Source of the DNA: Porticoccaceae bacterium
GTDB lineage: Bacteria > Pseudomonadota > Gammaproteobacteria > Pseudomonadales > Porticoccaceae
Length of the DNA stretch: 64,000 bases
Assembly (NCBI GenBank): GCA_902562425.1
Contig: CACETF010000003.1
Location: 62,001-126,000, forward strand
Direction: 5' to 3'
The translations under genes were made by a program, and so were the position numbers. Under the pieces are notes generated by a model, which searched no databases, was not told the DNA's origin, and worked only from the letters and a program-made list of their open reading frames with translations. Shown here in pieces: positions 46,695 through 52,993 of this stretch (the stretch's first letter is position 1; each line of letters starts with the position of its first letter).

Positions 46695-47456
46695 TCACTG
46701 TTGGGCGTGAATTGTTTTTCCATTTACGCCAAGACTGTCATTACCAAGCAAATAAAGGTATGCCCAAATGATTTGATCGGCGGTTTTCAAGTCACTTGGA
46801 TTTTCTGCCGGGTAAGCTTTTGCACGCATTGCCGTGCGAGTAGCTCCGGGATTAATCGCATTAATCCTGAGCTCCCCTAAATTTTCTTGTTCTGCGGCCC
46901 AGCCTCGCATGAGTGCTTCTACTGCGCACTTAGAAACGGCATATGCACCCCAGAATGCGCGGCTCGATTGCCCCGCTCCAGAGGTAGTAAAGATTATAGA
47001 TCCGCCATAAGTAGATTGTTCAAGGAGAGGCATCAGTGAGCGGGTGAGCTGAAATTGAGCGGTTACATTAGTCCGAAGTACTTTCTCCCAAAGTTCTGAC
47101 CTATATTGATTGAGCGGCATTCTATCCCCTAAAATCGCTGCGTTATTAACTAATCCATCCAAAGTTCCGAATTCGACCTCAATTCGATTTTTTAATTCTA
47201 AGTAGTCAGCATCTTTTGCGTGCTCCAAATCGAGGGGGCAAATTACCGCTTTGGAGCCCCTGTCGCGCACTACTTGGTCGTATGTGGCCTCAAGGGAATT
47301 AATATTTCGACCCGTGAGAATTGCAGTTGCGCCATACCGAGCAACTGCGATTGCTACAGCTCTGCCGATGCCATTACCTGCACCAGTTATCAAAATAACG
47401 CGTCCACTCAATAAATCACTCGATGCTGTATATGAGGAGACTGAGAACTTTTTCAA
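46695..47456 (-). CDS. yciK: YciK-family short-chain oxidoreductase
   Basis: SDR enzyme of 253 residues: cofactor loop TGAGNGIG, NNAAILGDRMPL, catalytic GAYAVSKCAVE. The start is TTG overlapping the mupP stop. The ubiG-mupP-yciK order matches Pseudomonas. Substrate unknown. Confidence 0.88.
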   Translation of the reverse strand: MKKFSVSSYTASSDLLSGRVILITGAGNGIGRAVAIAVARYGATAILTGRNINSLEATYDQVVRDRGSKAVICPLDLEHAKDADYLELKNRIEVEFGTLDGLVNNAAILGDRMPLNQYRSELWEKVLRTNVTAQFQLTRSLMPLLEQSTYGGSIIFTTSGAGQSSRAFWGAYAVSKCAVEALMRGWAAEQENLGELRINAINPGATRTAMRAKAYPAENPSDLKTADQIIWAYLYLLGNDSLGVNGKTIHAQQ

Positions 47457-48124
47457 TTTTCTAGCTCTTTAAAAAGAAGGTCAAAGAGTTTTTTTGGGGT
47501 GAGCGCGATCCAATCGGCATCCCAACAAGAGATATCCTCATGTTTGTTTATGTATCCCCAAGCAGCCACGATCGAACGCATTTTAGCATTTTTGGCAGCC
47601 AATATATCTCGTGAATGATCACCTATATATATACACTCATCAATTTTTATATTGAGGTGCATACTGCCAAGTTGAAGTGACTCTGGATGTGGCTTAGGCT
47701 TTTTAACATGATCAGAGCATATCACGCAGCGGGCGCGATTAATTAGATTTAATCTCTTCAGTAAACGTTCTGTATACATCCAAGGTTTATTTGTAACAAC
47801 GCCCCATGGTAACGCCCGCTGGTCGCATTCAGTTAGTATTTGGTTTATATGTGGGAAAATTTTAGTCTTGTCTCCAAGATGTTTAAGGTACAGAGTCAAC
47901 AATTCGTTTTGCAAGGTATCGAAGTTTAGGTCGATGGGTGTAACGTTAAACGCAAGTTCAAGTAAACTAGCCGACCCATCACTTACTCGGTTTCGAATAA
48001 GATCAAAATCAAGATGGGCACGTTTATACCTATCCAAGAGGGAGTTTATAGACGTCACAAAGTCAGGAGCTGTATCAAGGAGTGTTCCATCTAAATCGAA
48101 GAGAAGGCCGCTAAAAGCAATCAT
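47453..48124 (-). CDS. mupP: HAD phosphatase MupP (MurNAc 6-phosphate phosphatase)
   Basis: HAD hydrolase of 223 residues with nucleophile motif FDLDGTLLDTAPD, VVTNKPWMYTERLL and IGDHSRDILAAKNA. Pseudomonas MupP in the same position removes phosphate from N-acetylmuramic acid 6-phosphate in peptidoglycan recycling; phosphoglycolate phosphatase is the alternative. ATG 48124 has AGGA upstream; the TTG at 48139 does not. Confidence 0.85.
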   Translation of the reverse strand: MIAFSGLLFDLDGTLLDTAPDFVTSINSLLDRYKRAHLDFDLIRNRVSDGSASLLELAFNVTPIDLNFDTLQNELLTLYLKHLGDKTKIFPHINQILTECDQRALPWGVVTNKPWMYTERLLKRLNLINRARCVICSDHVKKPKPHPESLQLGSMHLNIKIDECIYIGDHSRDILAAKNAKMRSIVAAWGYINKHEDISCWDADWIALTPKKLFDLLFKELEN

Positions 48125-48148
48125 TACACTTCCTATCAAAGAGGTTCG

Positions 48149-48850
48149 TTAGGTTCGTTTTTTTGCGTGAATCATGTAATTAACATCGACTTGACTTGAT
48201 TCAAGACGGAAGTTTTTTGTGAAAGGATTGAGGGATAATCCAGTCATGTCCTCTATCTTTAGTTCATATCCTCTAGCCCAACCGGCTAGCTCCGATGGTC
48301 GAATAAAATTCTTATATTGGTGAGTTCCGATGGGCAGTAAACGTAAAAGGTATTCGGCTCCAAAGATGGCAAACAACGCCGATTTTATATTTCTATTTAT
48401 TGTGGAGAAATATACGCTACCACCAGGTTTTAATAGTGTGGCGCAGGCCCCAACTACTAAATCCGGCTGTGGGACGTGTTCTAGAACCTCTAAGCATGTT
48501 ATTATTTCGAATCTCTCAGAGCATTCGGATGCTAAGTTTTCTGCTGTTGAGAACTCATAATTTATTTTTAGCCCCGATACAAGGCTATGTCTCTTAGCGG
48601 CATCCAAGGCGGCTGTTGCAACATCAATACCAGTGACATCACCACCGCGTCTTGCAAGAGCTTCTGACAGGATTCCTCCTCCGCACCCCACATCCAAAAC
48701 GTGACAGCCTACTACTGGAGAGATTTGGTCAATCCAGTTTGCACGAAGTGGATTGATTTTATGCAGAGTCTTATACTCTCCGTTATAATCCCACCAATCA
48801 CGTGCAGTGGAGTTAAACTTGTTCACTTCGGATAAAGCGATGTTATTCAT
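48149..48850 (-). CDS. ubiG: Ubiquinone O-methyltransferase UbiG
   Basis: SAM-dependent methyltransferase of 233 residues. FNSTARDWWDYNGEYKTLH, HVLDVGCGGGILSEALA and EVLEHVPQPD are diagnostic. It performs both O-methylations in ubiquinone synthesis. It lies upstream of mupP by 24 bases and downstream of the amidohydrolase-like gene. Confidence 0.95.
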   Translation of the reverse strand: MNNIALSEVNKFNSTARDWWDYNGEYKTLHKINPLRANWIDQISPVVGCHVLDVGCGGGILSEALARRGGDVTGIDVATAALDAAKRHSLVSGLKINYEFSTAENLASECSERFEIITCLEVLEHVPQPDLVVGACATLLKPGGSVYFSTINRNIKSALFAIFGAEYLLRLLPIGTHQYKNFIRPSELAGWARGYELKIEDMTGLSLNPFTKNFRLESSQVDVNYMIHAKKRT

Positions 48851-48880: not shown

Positions 48881-50200
48881 CTAATAGTCAACTTGAACCA
48901 TCTTTGTGACCCAATCTTTACGTTTGCGATGTAAAAGCTCTTCATTTAATGTCTCAAGATTGCCATTTATCATTAGCGGCAGTCCTCCCACAAAACTGTG
49001 ACTGATCTTATGGTTGTAACTTTTATAAACGACTCCAGCGGCGATGTTGTTTATAGTTTGTTCATCGCTATATTTAATCTCAATCGCAATTAAATCAGCG
49101 AGTTTGTTGATTTCAAGAGTACCAATTTCCTCCTGCCAACCTAACGCTGTTGCTCCATCTAAGGTAGCCATGCGAAGTGATTGAAGAGGTGATAGTGCCC
49201 CATCATCTTTATCTAGAGCTTTGCTGAGAAAGGATGCGAATTGCAAATCGTTTAGCAAATCGAAGGAGAGGTCTCGCGAGAACCCACCAGATCCAAGAGC
49301 CACATTGATATTCATCTTTTTCAGTTCTCCAACTGGACAGAATTCGCTGACACTTATGAGGTTGAATCGGGGACAGTAAACAATGTGACTATTAAACTCT
49401 TGTAAGAGCAATAAGTCCCTTTGTTTTAGCTGGGTCATATGGATTAGTTGACTTTGAGGAGTGAGCAGACCACATGCTGCCAATCTTTCTAATGGTCTTG
49501 CTTTGAACTTTCTTGATGAAACTGAAATTTCCTCGAGCCAATTCCGCTCGCAGATCTGCAAAGGAAGTTCTATTTCATGAACATAGGTGGCAAGATCAGT
49601 TAGCTTGTTATTATCTAATGACGAGATTGATTGTGGTGCGCAAGCTACTCTTATGTGGGCGCTGTTCTTATAGTCATCAAAAAGCCGAAGGCCAACATTT
49701 AATTGGGCTTCCCAACTTTTATCCATGAGTTTTGAAGACTTAGTCAAGGGGAAACTAATTTGACTCCTGATGCCACATTCTCTGGCAACATTTGCGGCAA
49801 TATTTGGAAATAGAGCTACGTCTGCAAAGCATGTTGTGCCAGTCTTTATCATTTCGGCGACAGCAATTTGTGTTGCATCATAAATCAATTCAGAGTTAAC
49901 GGAATATTCAGCAAGAACGTGAGGTAACGTACCTAACCAGCTTTGGTTGGATTGCTCAAAAATAATTTTCGCTAATACATTTAAGGATGCGTAAGTGTGG
50001 CTATTAATAAGCCCAGGCAAAACTAAGTGTCGGTCTAGGGCATAAGTGACAGATGGTTCAAACCTTTGTGAGGCCTCCGATTGTTCGCAAATTGCGATTA
50101 TCCTTTTATTATGAATCGCAATCGAAACCCTTTCAAATATACAATTTTGTGGGATTATTGGTATTACCCATCTGCAGTTTAGTAATGTATCAATGAACAT
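48881..50200 (-). CDS. Amidohydrolase-like protein (MtaD/TRZ family) lacking metal ligands
   Basis: A full-length 439-residue protein of the MtaD family, which deaminates methylthioadenosine or S-adenosylhomocysteine. In Pseudomonas mtaD sits here beside ubiG. The fold is kept (LPGLINSH, FADVALFP, IHMTQL, RMATLDGATALG). Judged against TM0936/MtaD ligands, H68 of HxH is kept but the second is Y70; the barrel histidine is Q215 (LPLQICE); the aspartate of GTDG is G305 (GSGG). E218 and H254 remain. Three of four metal ligands are thus lost, so deamination is unlikely. No stop or shift interrupts it. Confidence 0.85.
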   Translation of the reverse strand: MFIDTLLNCRWVIPIIPQNCIFERVSIAIHNKRIIAICEQSEASQRFEPSVTYALDRHLVLPGLINSHTYASLNVLAKIIFEQSNQSWLGTLPHVLAEYSVNSELIYDATQIAVAEMIKTGTTCFADVALFPNIAANVARECGIRSQISFPLTKSSKLMDKSWEAQLNVGLRLFDDYKNSAHIRVACAPQSISSLDNNKLTDLATYVHEIELPLQICERNWLEEISVSSRKFKARPLERLAACGLLTPQSQLIHMTQLKQRDLLLLQEFNSHIVYCPRFNLISVSEFCPVGELKKMNINVALGSGGFSRDLSFDLLNDLQFASFLSKALDKDDGALSPLQSLRMATLDGATALGWQEEIGTLEINKLADLIAIEIKYSDEQTINNIAAGVVYKSYNHKISHSFVGGLPLMINGNLETLNEELLHRKRKDWVTKMVQVDY

Positions 50201-50428: not shown

Positions 50429-52993
50429 ATGAGTAATCTGGCAAAAGATATCGTACCCGTCAAGATTGAAGAAGAACTAAAACAATCTTATCTTGATTAC
50501 GCTATGAGCGTCATAGTCGGAAGAGCATTACCTGATGTTAGAGATGGCCTAAAGCCGGTGCATCGACGAGTTCTTTTTGCGATGCACCAGTTGAATAATG
50601 ACTGGAACAAGCCATACAAAAAGTCTGCTCGAATCGTCGGTGATGTTATTGGTAAGTATCATCCTCATGGTGACAGTGCTGTCTACGACACCATTGTTCG
50701 GATGGCACAATCATTCTCGTTACGACACATGTTAGTAGATGGACAAGGTAATTTTGGTTCAATCGATGGTGATTCCGCTGCCGCAATGAGGTATACCGAG
50801 ATTCGAATGACGAGGATAGCGCACGCGTTGCTCGAGGATTTAGAGAAAGATACAGTCAATTATCAACCAAATTATGATGAATCCGAGTCAATACCGGTAG
50901 TTATGCCGACTCGTATTCCAAACTTATTGGTAAATGGTTCGTCCGGAATTGCTGTAGGTATGGCAACTAACATACCTCCTCACAATCTCACTGATATCAT
51001 TTCAGGTTGTCTCGCTATGATTGATAATAGTGACATCACCATAGATCAGTTAATGCAATATATCCCTGGCCCAGATTTTCCAACTGGAGCCATAATTAAT
51101 GGAAAAGCTGGCATTATTGAAGCGTATAAGACAGGACGAGGACGGATATACGTGCGCGCGTCAGCCCATGTTGAGGTTAACGACAAAAGCGGTCGAGAGA
51201 CAATTATTGTCAAAGAGATTCCATATCAGTTGAACAAAGCACGCTTAATCGAACGTATTGCAGAATTGGTCAAAGAAAAAAAGATTGAAGGAATTTCTGA
51301 ATTGCGAGACGAGTCGGACAAAGATGGATTACGAGTCGTTATCGAAATTAAGCGAGGAGAGATTGGCGAAGTCGTACTTAATAATTTATATGCACAGACT
51401 CAGTTACAGACTGTGTTTGGAATAAATATTGTTGCATTAGTGGATGGTCAACCGAAGATTTTAAATCTTAAAGAATTACTAGAGGCTTTTATTTCCCACA
51501 GGCGCGAAGTAGTTACTAGGCGTTGTATTTTCTTGTTAAAGAAAGCACGTGCGCGAGCACACACATTAACGGGTTATGCAGTAGCGTTGATGAATATTAA
51601 TCCAATAATAGCTGTAATAAAAAATGCCGAAAATCCGACTGCAGCAAGGGCTGCGCTTCTTGGTAGAGCATGGAATCCAGGCTCAGCGGAATCGCTATTG
51701 GAACGCGTTGATGCTGAGCCTTCTGTTGTCTTTCCGAGTGAAGATGGATATGGATTAATAAATGGACAATATTACTTATCCCCAAGTCAAGCGCGAGACA
51801 TACTTGATTTAAGACTGCACCGTCTCACAGGTTTGGAGCAGCAGAAAATATTAGATGAGGCAACGCTTAAATTTGATGAGATATCTGAGTACCAAAACAT
51901 TCTGTCAGATACTCACAGACTGATGGCTGTAATTAAGGATGAATTGGAGAGCGTTGTAAGGGAATTCAGTGATCCCAGGAGGACTCAAATAGTAGAATCA
52001 CAGCACGACCTAACTGTTGAGGATCTTATTGCTGAGGAAGAGCGGGTGGTCACCATTTCTCATGGGGGATATGCTAAGACGCAGCCCCTCTCTGATTACC
52101 AATCACAAAGACGAGGTGGGATGGGGAAATCTGCTACCGCCGTCAAAGATGCAGACTTCATTGAACACTTATTAATTGCTAGCACACATGCCACTATTCT
52201 ATGCTTTACAAATGCTGGAAAAGTTTATTGGTTAAAGGTGTATCAGATACCTTTAGCCGGTCGTAATTCCAGAGGCAGACCGATAATAAATTTACTTCCT
52301 TTGGATGATGGAGAAAGGATAAACTCTATATTACCAGTAGATGGATACAGCAGTGACCAATACGTCATAATGGCAACAGCTAACGGAACCGTAAAGAAGA
52401 CGCAGTTGTCTCAATATTCAAATCCACGCAAAGCAGGACTGCGTGCGATTGAGCTTGTTGCGGGAGATGTGCTGGTTGGAACTGCTATAATCAACGATGG
52501 GAACGATATTATGTTGTTTAGCAGTGAAGGCAAAGCCGTTCGTTTTCAGAGCACGGATGTGCGGTCAATGGGTCGCGTGTCAAAGGGTGTCAGAGGTATG
52601 CGTCTAAAAAACAGAGGCAGAGTAATATCAATGGTTATTCCAGAGGACAACGGGTATCTATTGACAGTCTGTGATAATGGCTTTGGTAAACGAACTGAAT
52701 GTTCGGAGTTTCCCACTAAAGGTCGAGGAGGAAAAGGCATGATTGCAATACAGGCAAGTGACCGCAACGGTCCGCTTGTTGGTGCCGCTCAATTATTTAC
52801 AGGGGATGAAATAATGTTGATTTCAGATCAGGGAACTATGGTGAGAACGCGTTCTGAAGAGGTGTCAGTAGTCGGAAGAAATACGCAAGGCGTAAGAGTA
52901 ATTCGTTTAAAACGGAATGAGCGTTTGGTTAGTCTAGCCCGAATTGCTGAGGCTGAAGGAATAAATTTAATTGGAAGATCTGATGAAACCTAA
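50429..52993 (+). CDS. gyrA: DNA gyrase subunit A
   Basis: Topoisomerase II subunit of 854 residues. The catalytic tyrosine is in [12 protein letters not shown]. The quinolone region reads [17 protein letters not shown], with the sensitive-type Ser and Asp. The GyrA box is QRRGGMG in the C-terminal wrapping domain, which shows repeated propeller blades. It heads the gyrA-pheA-tyrA/aroA-cmk-rpsA series. Confidence 0.98.

Follow-up and report, generated by a model that had tools for sequence, protein, structure and literature searches.

A putative MtaD-lineage pseudoenzyme with recurrent loss of metal-site residues at the gyrA-ubiG locus

The MtaD protein of Pseudomonas (PRK09045/NF006549) is a 5'-methylthioadenosine (MTA) deaminase (Guan et al. 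2012, as cited in PMC6302742). The P. aeruginosa pathway converts MTA by deamination to methylthioinosine, and a phosphorylase then cleaves this product (PMC6302742). Inactive chains are also found in the amidohydrolase superfamily, since the aspartate transcarbamoylase of P. aeruginosa needs an inactive dihydroorotase-like chain for its activity (PMC7053772). In addition, the fungal Ssd1/Dis3L2 pseudonucleases have lost their catalytic residues in at least four independent events without loss of the protein, from which the authors inferred an older, nuclease-independent function (PMC8097288).

The present study concerns an amidohydrolase gene with a degenerate active site, found in a stretch of 64,000 nucleotides (hereafter the window) on contig C3 of a 2.24-Mb Porticoccaceae assembly. 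For the evolutionary pattern of repeated loss, Ssd1/Dis3L2 (PMC8097288) is the closest precedent, although it is a eukaryotic RNase whose RNA-binding role has been identified, whereas a second role of MtaD is one that we infer. The pseudo-dihydroorotase (PMC7053772) is the best precedent for the mode of action, because it too is an inactive amidohydrolase-superfamily chain, retained for the sake of a partner enzyme; however, it belongs to another subfamily and has another, known partner, whereas UbiG is only a candidate for the window protein. We found no description of a degenerate MtaD in the open-licence literature, and a recurrent conversion of MtaD to a pseudoenzyme is without a report in that searchable literature. 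Our main reading, to which we assign a probability of about 50%, is that an MtaD-lineage amidohydrolase has turned pseudoenzyme: its pathway decayed, its active site eroded, and the protein was kept for a non-catalytic role.

Locus and active-site residues

An earlier note, made from the window sequence, had described the gene as full length, with an intact frame, in its usual place beside ubiG. Both observations hold, as the open reading frame (Table 1) begins with ATG and has no internal stops, and the adjoining gene is called as ubiG with 255 bits against a TIGR01983 cut-off of 103. The gene heads a same-strand run (AH-ubiG-mupP-yciK, where AH is the amidohydrolase gene) that diverges from gyrA. 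Close named relatives are a Porticoccaceae MAG (94% identical protein) and Cellvibrionales bacterium UBA1854 (91%).

Table 1. Coordinates of genes and active-site codons in the window
Feature	Position	Strand	Remarks
Pseudo-MtaD gene	48881..50200	-	439 aa; amidohydrolase fold, degenerate active site; PRK09045, PF01979, best PDB 4dyk
ubiG	48149..48850	-	30 bases downstream of the pseudo-MtaD gene; TIGR01983
mupP/gph-like HAD phosphatase	47453..48139	-	
yciK-family short-chain dehydrogenase	46695..47456	-	
gyrA	50429..52993	+	divergent from the pseudo-MtaD gene; conserved-locus marker
H68-T-Y70	49991..49999	-	degenerate HxH metal motif, Tyr for the second His
Q190	49631..49633	-	for invariant His; codon position calculated from the confirmed frame
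C217	49550..49552	-	for the invariant third metal ligand His
N220	49541..49543	-	for the invariant Glu of the HxxE motif
H254	49439..49441	-	kept; codon position by arithmetic
G305	49286..49288	-	for the catalytic/metal Asp; GTDGAASNN motif replaced by GSGGFSRDL

The window protein belongs to the amidohydrolase family PF01979 (104 bits, cut-off 25). The equivalog model PRK09045 (NF006549) has a cut-off of 540 bits, which is exceeded by G001, an active member of the genus (606 bits), but not reached by the window protein (352), G002 (353), or G003 (496). Orthology with MtaD/PRK09045 is instead given by the gyrA / AH-ubiG-mupP-yciK locus and by vertical descent with active orthologues; the frame encodes an amidohydrolase of the MtaD/PRK09045 type, at the conserved gyrA / mtaD-ubiG-mupP-yciK locus. 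Among solved structures, 4dyk and 4gbd match the protein best, with TM0936 lower in the ranking. The 4dyk structure is that of the P. aeruginosa PA3170 protein, whose gene adjoins ubiG.

The 82 active orthologues that served as a reference for the site columns agree without exception at seven of them (68 H, 70 H, 190 H, 217 H, 220 E, 254 H, and 305 D). At these columns, the window protein reads HYQCNHG against HHHHEHD in the active orthologues. The metal ligands H-x-H, H, D are therefore absent as a set, having become H-x-Y, C217, and G305, such that three of the four are replaced (H70Y, H217C, and D305G). The earlier note had listed H70Y, H215Q, and D305G; its count of three lost ligands and the first and last of these changes stand, but the middle position does not. 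Column 215 varies among the 82 active orthologues (H in 54, Q in 26, and M in 2) and so holds no metal ligand; the ligand column is 217, which is H in all 82 and lost in all eight degenerate lineages.

In addition to the ligand losses, H190 has become Q and E220 has become N, so that the Glu of HxxE and one of the additional conserved His residues of MtaD are missing, while H68 and H254 remain. The W94 substrate loop is also gone. By motif, we take H190, E220, and H254 to correspond to H173, E203, and H228 of TM0936. The window protein thus shares with Pseudomonas MtaD its best PDB match, its best NCBIfam model, and the locus seen in active family members, but it differs in its PRK09045 score and in the loss of three ligands out of the four, together with the conserved Glu and one further His. 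With TM0936 (PDB 1p1m/2plm), an MTA/SAH deaminase, it shares a recognisable amidohydrolase fold and motif order (E 4e-19); the TM0936 structure retains H-x-H, H, D, unlike the window protein.

The same core losses (H190, H217, E220, and D305) are common to the window protein and all five of its nearest relatives, sister species that are 74-94% identical and together with it form clade A. H70Y is found in only three of these proteins, that of the window and the two nearest to it, and since H70 is kept in G002, G009, and G012, its loss is the most recent. A sequencing or assembly error is ruled out, as the core changes occur in six genomes and the degenerate state in 25. The alignment with MtaD homologues also rules out that the ligands have moved to adjacent positions. 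Within the six clade A sequences, column 217 is C/C/C/C/D/D and column 220 is N throughout, columns 218-219 vary freely (EGAAAT and RRQHHH), and no conserved H/D/E/C set was found in the clade A alignment that replaces the lost metal site. The protein is, in short, a homologue that lacks conserved catalytic residues, and its hydrolase reaction has very probably been lost, judging from these substitutions.

Distribution and number of origins

Within the genus, an mtaD orthologue was found in 14 of 14 genomes, every time at the same locus. Only three are canonical (G001, G007, and G013), whereas the other 11 are degenerate in three patterns. Clade A, with six members including the window, has lost H190, H217, E220, and D305 in every member and H70 in three of them. 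Clade B (four genomes; QCDREHE) has lost all four metal ligands. G003 (HHSNEHD) has lost H190 and H217. The GC content of the mtaD gene is 40-44% in clades A and B and 51-56% in the three active genus members.

Across the family, all seven residues were found in 80 of 103 sequences, and 20 are degenerate; the remaining 3 are partial, ambiguous, or frame-broken. The degenerate members outside the genus number nine, namely seven from genus g10 and two from genus g13, all with a full-length gene at the gyrA-ubiG locus. The degenerate g10 lineages have small genomes (1.2-1.7 Mb). In other families of the order, degenerate orthologues occur at the gyrA-ubiG locus in four genomes from family f13 (HFYYQQD-like; L171, L172, L174, and L175) and in one from family f15 (HQHRQHA; L176); this count is a lower bound, as it comes from an order search followed by a sample of 15 genomes, mainly ones with low scores. 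In the f13 group, the second His of HxH and the His at columns 217 and 254 are lost, and the catalytic Asp persists. Collectively, 25 genomes carry a degenerate orthologue (11 from the genus, 9 from the family, and 5 from two other families); all 25 genes are full length with an open frame, and the gyrA-AH-ubiG context was present wherever flanks were examined. Ligand loss seems tied to streamlined, AT-rich lineages, with G003 (53% GC) as an exception.

We did not detect mtaD in 9 of 112 family genomes at E 1e-25 (G016, G035, G070, G074, G076, G095, G098, G102, and G117), some of which are nearly complete and one of which is rated 100% complete, so that the gene can evidently disappear altogether. 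Since some family genomes have no detectable copy, the role of the gene is not essential everywhere. A lone frame-broken copy was seen in the family survey (L120, in G108); it is of the canonical type, its two frames meet near residue 274, and it reflects either a sequencing error or a fresh loss.

These patterns bear on whether some degenerate members still catalyse a new or altered reaction, with a single metal or metal-free. One-metal amidohydrolases such as NagA exist, and two or three ligands survive in certain members (H-x-H, N, D in G003; H68 and D305 in f13). However, the catalytic Asp is Gly throughout clade A with no substitute ligand set, and clade B is left with no ligand at all. 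We thus regard altered catalysis as highly improbable and favour a protein that has turned pseudoenzyme.

We then considered how often the change occurred. The first gene tree of the genus agrees with the flank genes, and descent is therefore vertical. Under an LG+C20 mixture, the trees built for 51 taxa from the gene itself and from UbiG+GyrA each require five changes between the canonical and degenerate states, at least four of which are forced by well-supported branches. A precise regain of several ligands is implausible, and the changes are therefore read as losses. On these trees, the catalytic residues were lost independently at least four to five times at the same chromosomal place. The alternative is that a single ancient pseudoenzyme, either a paralogue or a transferred copy, took the place of the active gene in several lineages. 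FastTree did unite all degenerate family sequences, joining those of genera g1, g10, and g13, and branching among the g10+g13 lineages and among those of g1 is only partly resolved. Because the degenerate sequences have long branches, we judge the FastTree grouping to be a long-branch artefact; the site-mixture gene tree, like the flank-gene tree, places the degenerate groups apart. Moreover, different residues were lost in each lineage, and two of the lineages lie in other families. A single origin is thus very unlikely, and recurrent erosion of a vertically inherited gene is preferred.

Selection on the gene

Pairwise dN/dS was estimated by the simple Nei-Gojobori method, without a codon-usage model, and with bootstrap intervals. 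Ratios for degenerate pairs were 0.13-0.28 (upper bootstrap limits at most 0.43) against 0.03-0.09 for active pairs, that is, below 1 but 3-8 times those of active orthologues. In the small-genome g10 lineages, the degenerate gene showed 0.15-0.24 versus 0.00-0.03 for the neighbouring ubiG. Constraint is therefore clearly reduced. Within the window clade, the pseudo-MtaD gene evolves at about the rate of mupP and rluB and at ~3 times that of gyrA, near the ratio seen for active orthologues.

The absence of stop codons was assessed by neutral simulation of the window gene, which gave 4.8 expected stops at dS 0.1 and 8.0 at dS 0.19, with probabilities of zero stops of 0.0075 and 0.001, respectively. 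No stop codon was found among the 25 degenerate genomes. The earlier note had offered two options, a non-catalytic role under selection and very early decay. The second fails, as drift predicts ~5-8 stops between the closest pairs where none exist, and recent decay is ruled out by the selection estimates and the simulation together. The first gains support from the shared substitutions, the 25 intact frames, and the dN/dS range, all of which suggest that purifying selection maintains the protein; that the gene is kept in this way is highly likely. The contrary pattern, with every ligand present in close relatives and relaxed selection on this gene, was not observed, as the nearest relatives are themselves without the ligands. 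By every sequence criterion, then, the window protein is a pseudoenzyme.

Slow decay is a separate matter. The gene may have stayed open by chance, because misfolded products are selected against, or because the promoter or translation start region of ubiG lies within its DNA. The raised dN/dS and the absence of the gene from some streamlined genomes would agree with this. However, all 25 genes are intact at pairwise dS of up to ~1.5-1.7, over which drift predicts many stops; promoter-like sites are no commoner than in shuffles; and a role at the DNA level would not hold the protein dN/dS near 0.2. We consider slow decay quite improbable compared with retention of the pseudoenzyme for its protein.

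Constraint is not evenly distributed along the protein. The seven active-site columns are kept in 16 of 56 lineage-by-column cells, as against 356 of 560 for other active-invariant columns (Fisher p 5e-7). H217 is kept in none of the eight degenerate lineages, and H70 and H190 in one each, whereas 14 scaffold columns (P62, G63, N66, G121, D175, E209, Q251, P277, T346, A350, G360, A368, A372, and G406) persist in every one of the eight. We also compared divergence in pocket segments, picked by the analyst from motif positions, with that in the rest of the protein. The pocket/rest ratio was 0.22-0.54 in active clades, meaning that the pocket is ~2-5 times better conserved than the rest, which does not hold for A, D, E, F, and f13 among the degenerate clades; it was 0.90-1.57 in five of six degenerate clades. 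Degenerate lineages have thus lost the special constraint on the pocket and retained constraint on the scaffold.

This distribution also informs the idea that the pocket has been re-used, so that the protein would serve as a sensor, carrier, or buffer by binding, but not hydrolysing, a small molecule such as a nucleoside, a SAM-derived product, or a quinone precursor. H68 and H254 are kept, all six members of clade A share a fixed, rebuilt GSGGF(S/T)RDLSFD loop, and the intermediate ratio of clade B (0.59), whose pocket diverges less than the rest, would fit ligand binding. Nevertheless, the clade A pocket diverges like the rest (0.94), C217/D217 and columns 218-219 vary within that clade, and the pocket residues of different degenerate lineages are unrelated. 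Re-use of the pocket is accordingly unlikely. That the protein instead has an ancestral role in scaffolding or regulation, and not a newly gained one in ligand binding, comes a little short of an even chance.

Metabolic context and a retained role

Under our main reading, the metal site for hydrolysis of MTA, SAH, or 5'-deoxyadenosine is gone, and a folded protein would still be made and selected. As a first step, this part of the family may have lost methylthioinosine phosphorylase, in which case MTA deamination would lead nowhere. A full-length PF01048 phosphorylase (methylthioinosine phosphorylase) is present in 0 of 25 degenerate versus 20 of 38 residue-checked active genomes, with each genome counted separately, related ones included; the correlation is seen in these counts, and the order of events is our reconstruction. 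Since active MtaD persists in some genomes without the phosphorylase, its loss looks permissive rather than sufficient. Stepwise and independent erosion of the catalytic residues would have followed in the four to five or more lineages indicated by the sequences.

A short MTA-nucleosidase-like protein occurs in 4 of 25 degenerate genomes (G003, G008, G011, and G226), in 3 genomes where MtaD was undetected (G095, G050, and G167), and in 0 of 38 active genomes, again with related genomes counted separately. It was called by direct homology in the genus and G095 and by a split PF01048 signal in the f15 genomes (G226, G050, and G167). The loci encode ~184-190 aa (L058/L160 in G003, L161 in G011, L162 in G008, and L163 in G095). 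The G003 protein (184 aa) is PRK05634-like, with 117 bits against a cut-off of 129, and its best PDB match is an MTA/SAH nucleosidase. This short protein may provide a replacement route for MTA removal. SAH can be cleared without MtaD, since each of the 14 genus members has AhcY. Spermidine synthase was considered as a driver and proved uninformative, as within the genus it occurs only in G003.

As a last step, the protein would have been kept for a role that does not depend on catalysis and that its active ancestor would already have had, which is the simplest account of several independent losses in which the gene was always kept. That role would most likely be structural or regulatory, involving either a partner from the same operon, with UbiG as the first candidate, or the protein's own oligomer. 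UbiG is put forward because of gene order only, and we consider it distinctly unlikely to be the partner. It is likewise rather doubtful, though less so, that all MtaD proteins of the gyrA-ubiG locus in the order have a hidden catalysis-independent function, such as contact with UbiG or another operon product. From the sequence comparisons, the window protein is thus predicted to hydrolyse nothing, bind no metal, and retain a non-catalytic role.

That a metal site was lost repeatedly at one conserved locus, each time with the frame preserved, provides a natural experiment and points to a second function. The MtaD family carries only a hydrolase annotation in databases, and the matched active and inactive orthologues offer a way to that function. 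Our data also suggest that many genomes that would receive an MTA/SAH deaminase annotation at the gyrA-ubiG locus cannot perform that step; if it is missing, reconstructions of methionine salvage in these gammaproteobacteria would change.

A second active MtaD copy in the window's genome was sought and rejected by sequence. The other six PF01979 proteins resemble urease alpha, dihydroorotase- and allantoinase-like proteins, and deaminases at most ~30% identical to MtaD. At L001 (G000 C3:5006-5995) and L002-L005 (G000 C11), this genome encodes the alpha subunit of a urease together with clustered nucleobase-type amidohydrolases (guanine deaminase-like and allantoinase-like), which suggests the use of purine nitrogen.
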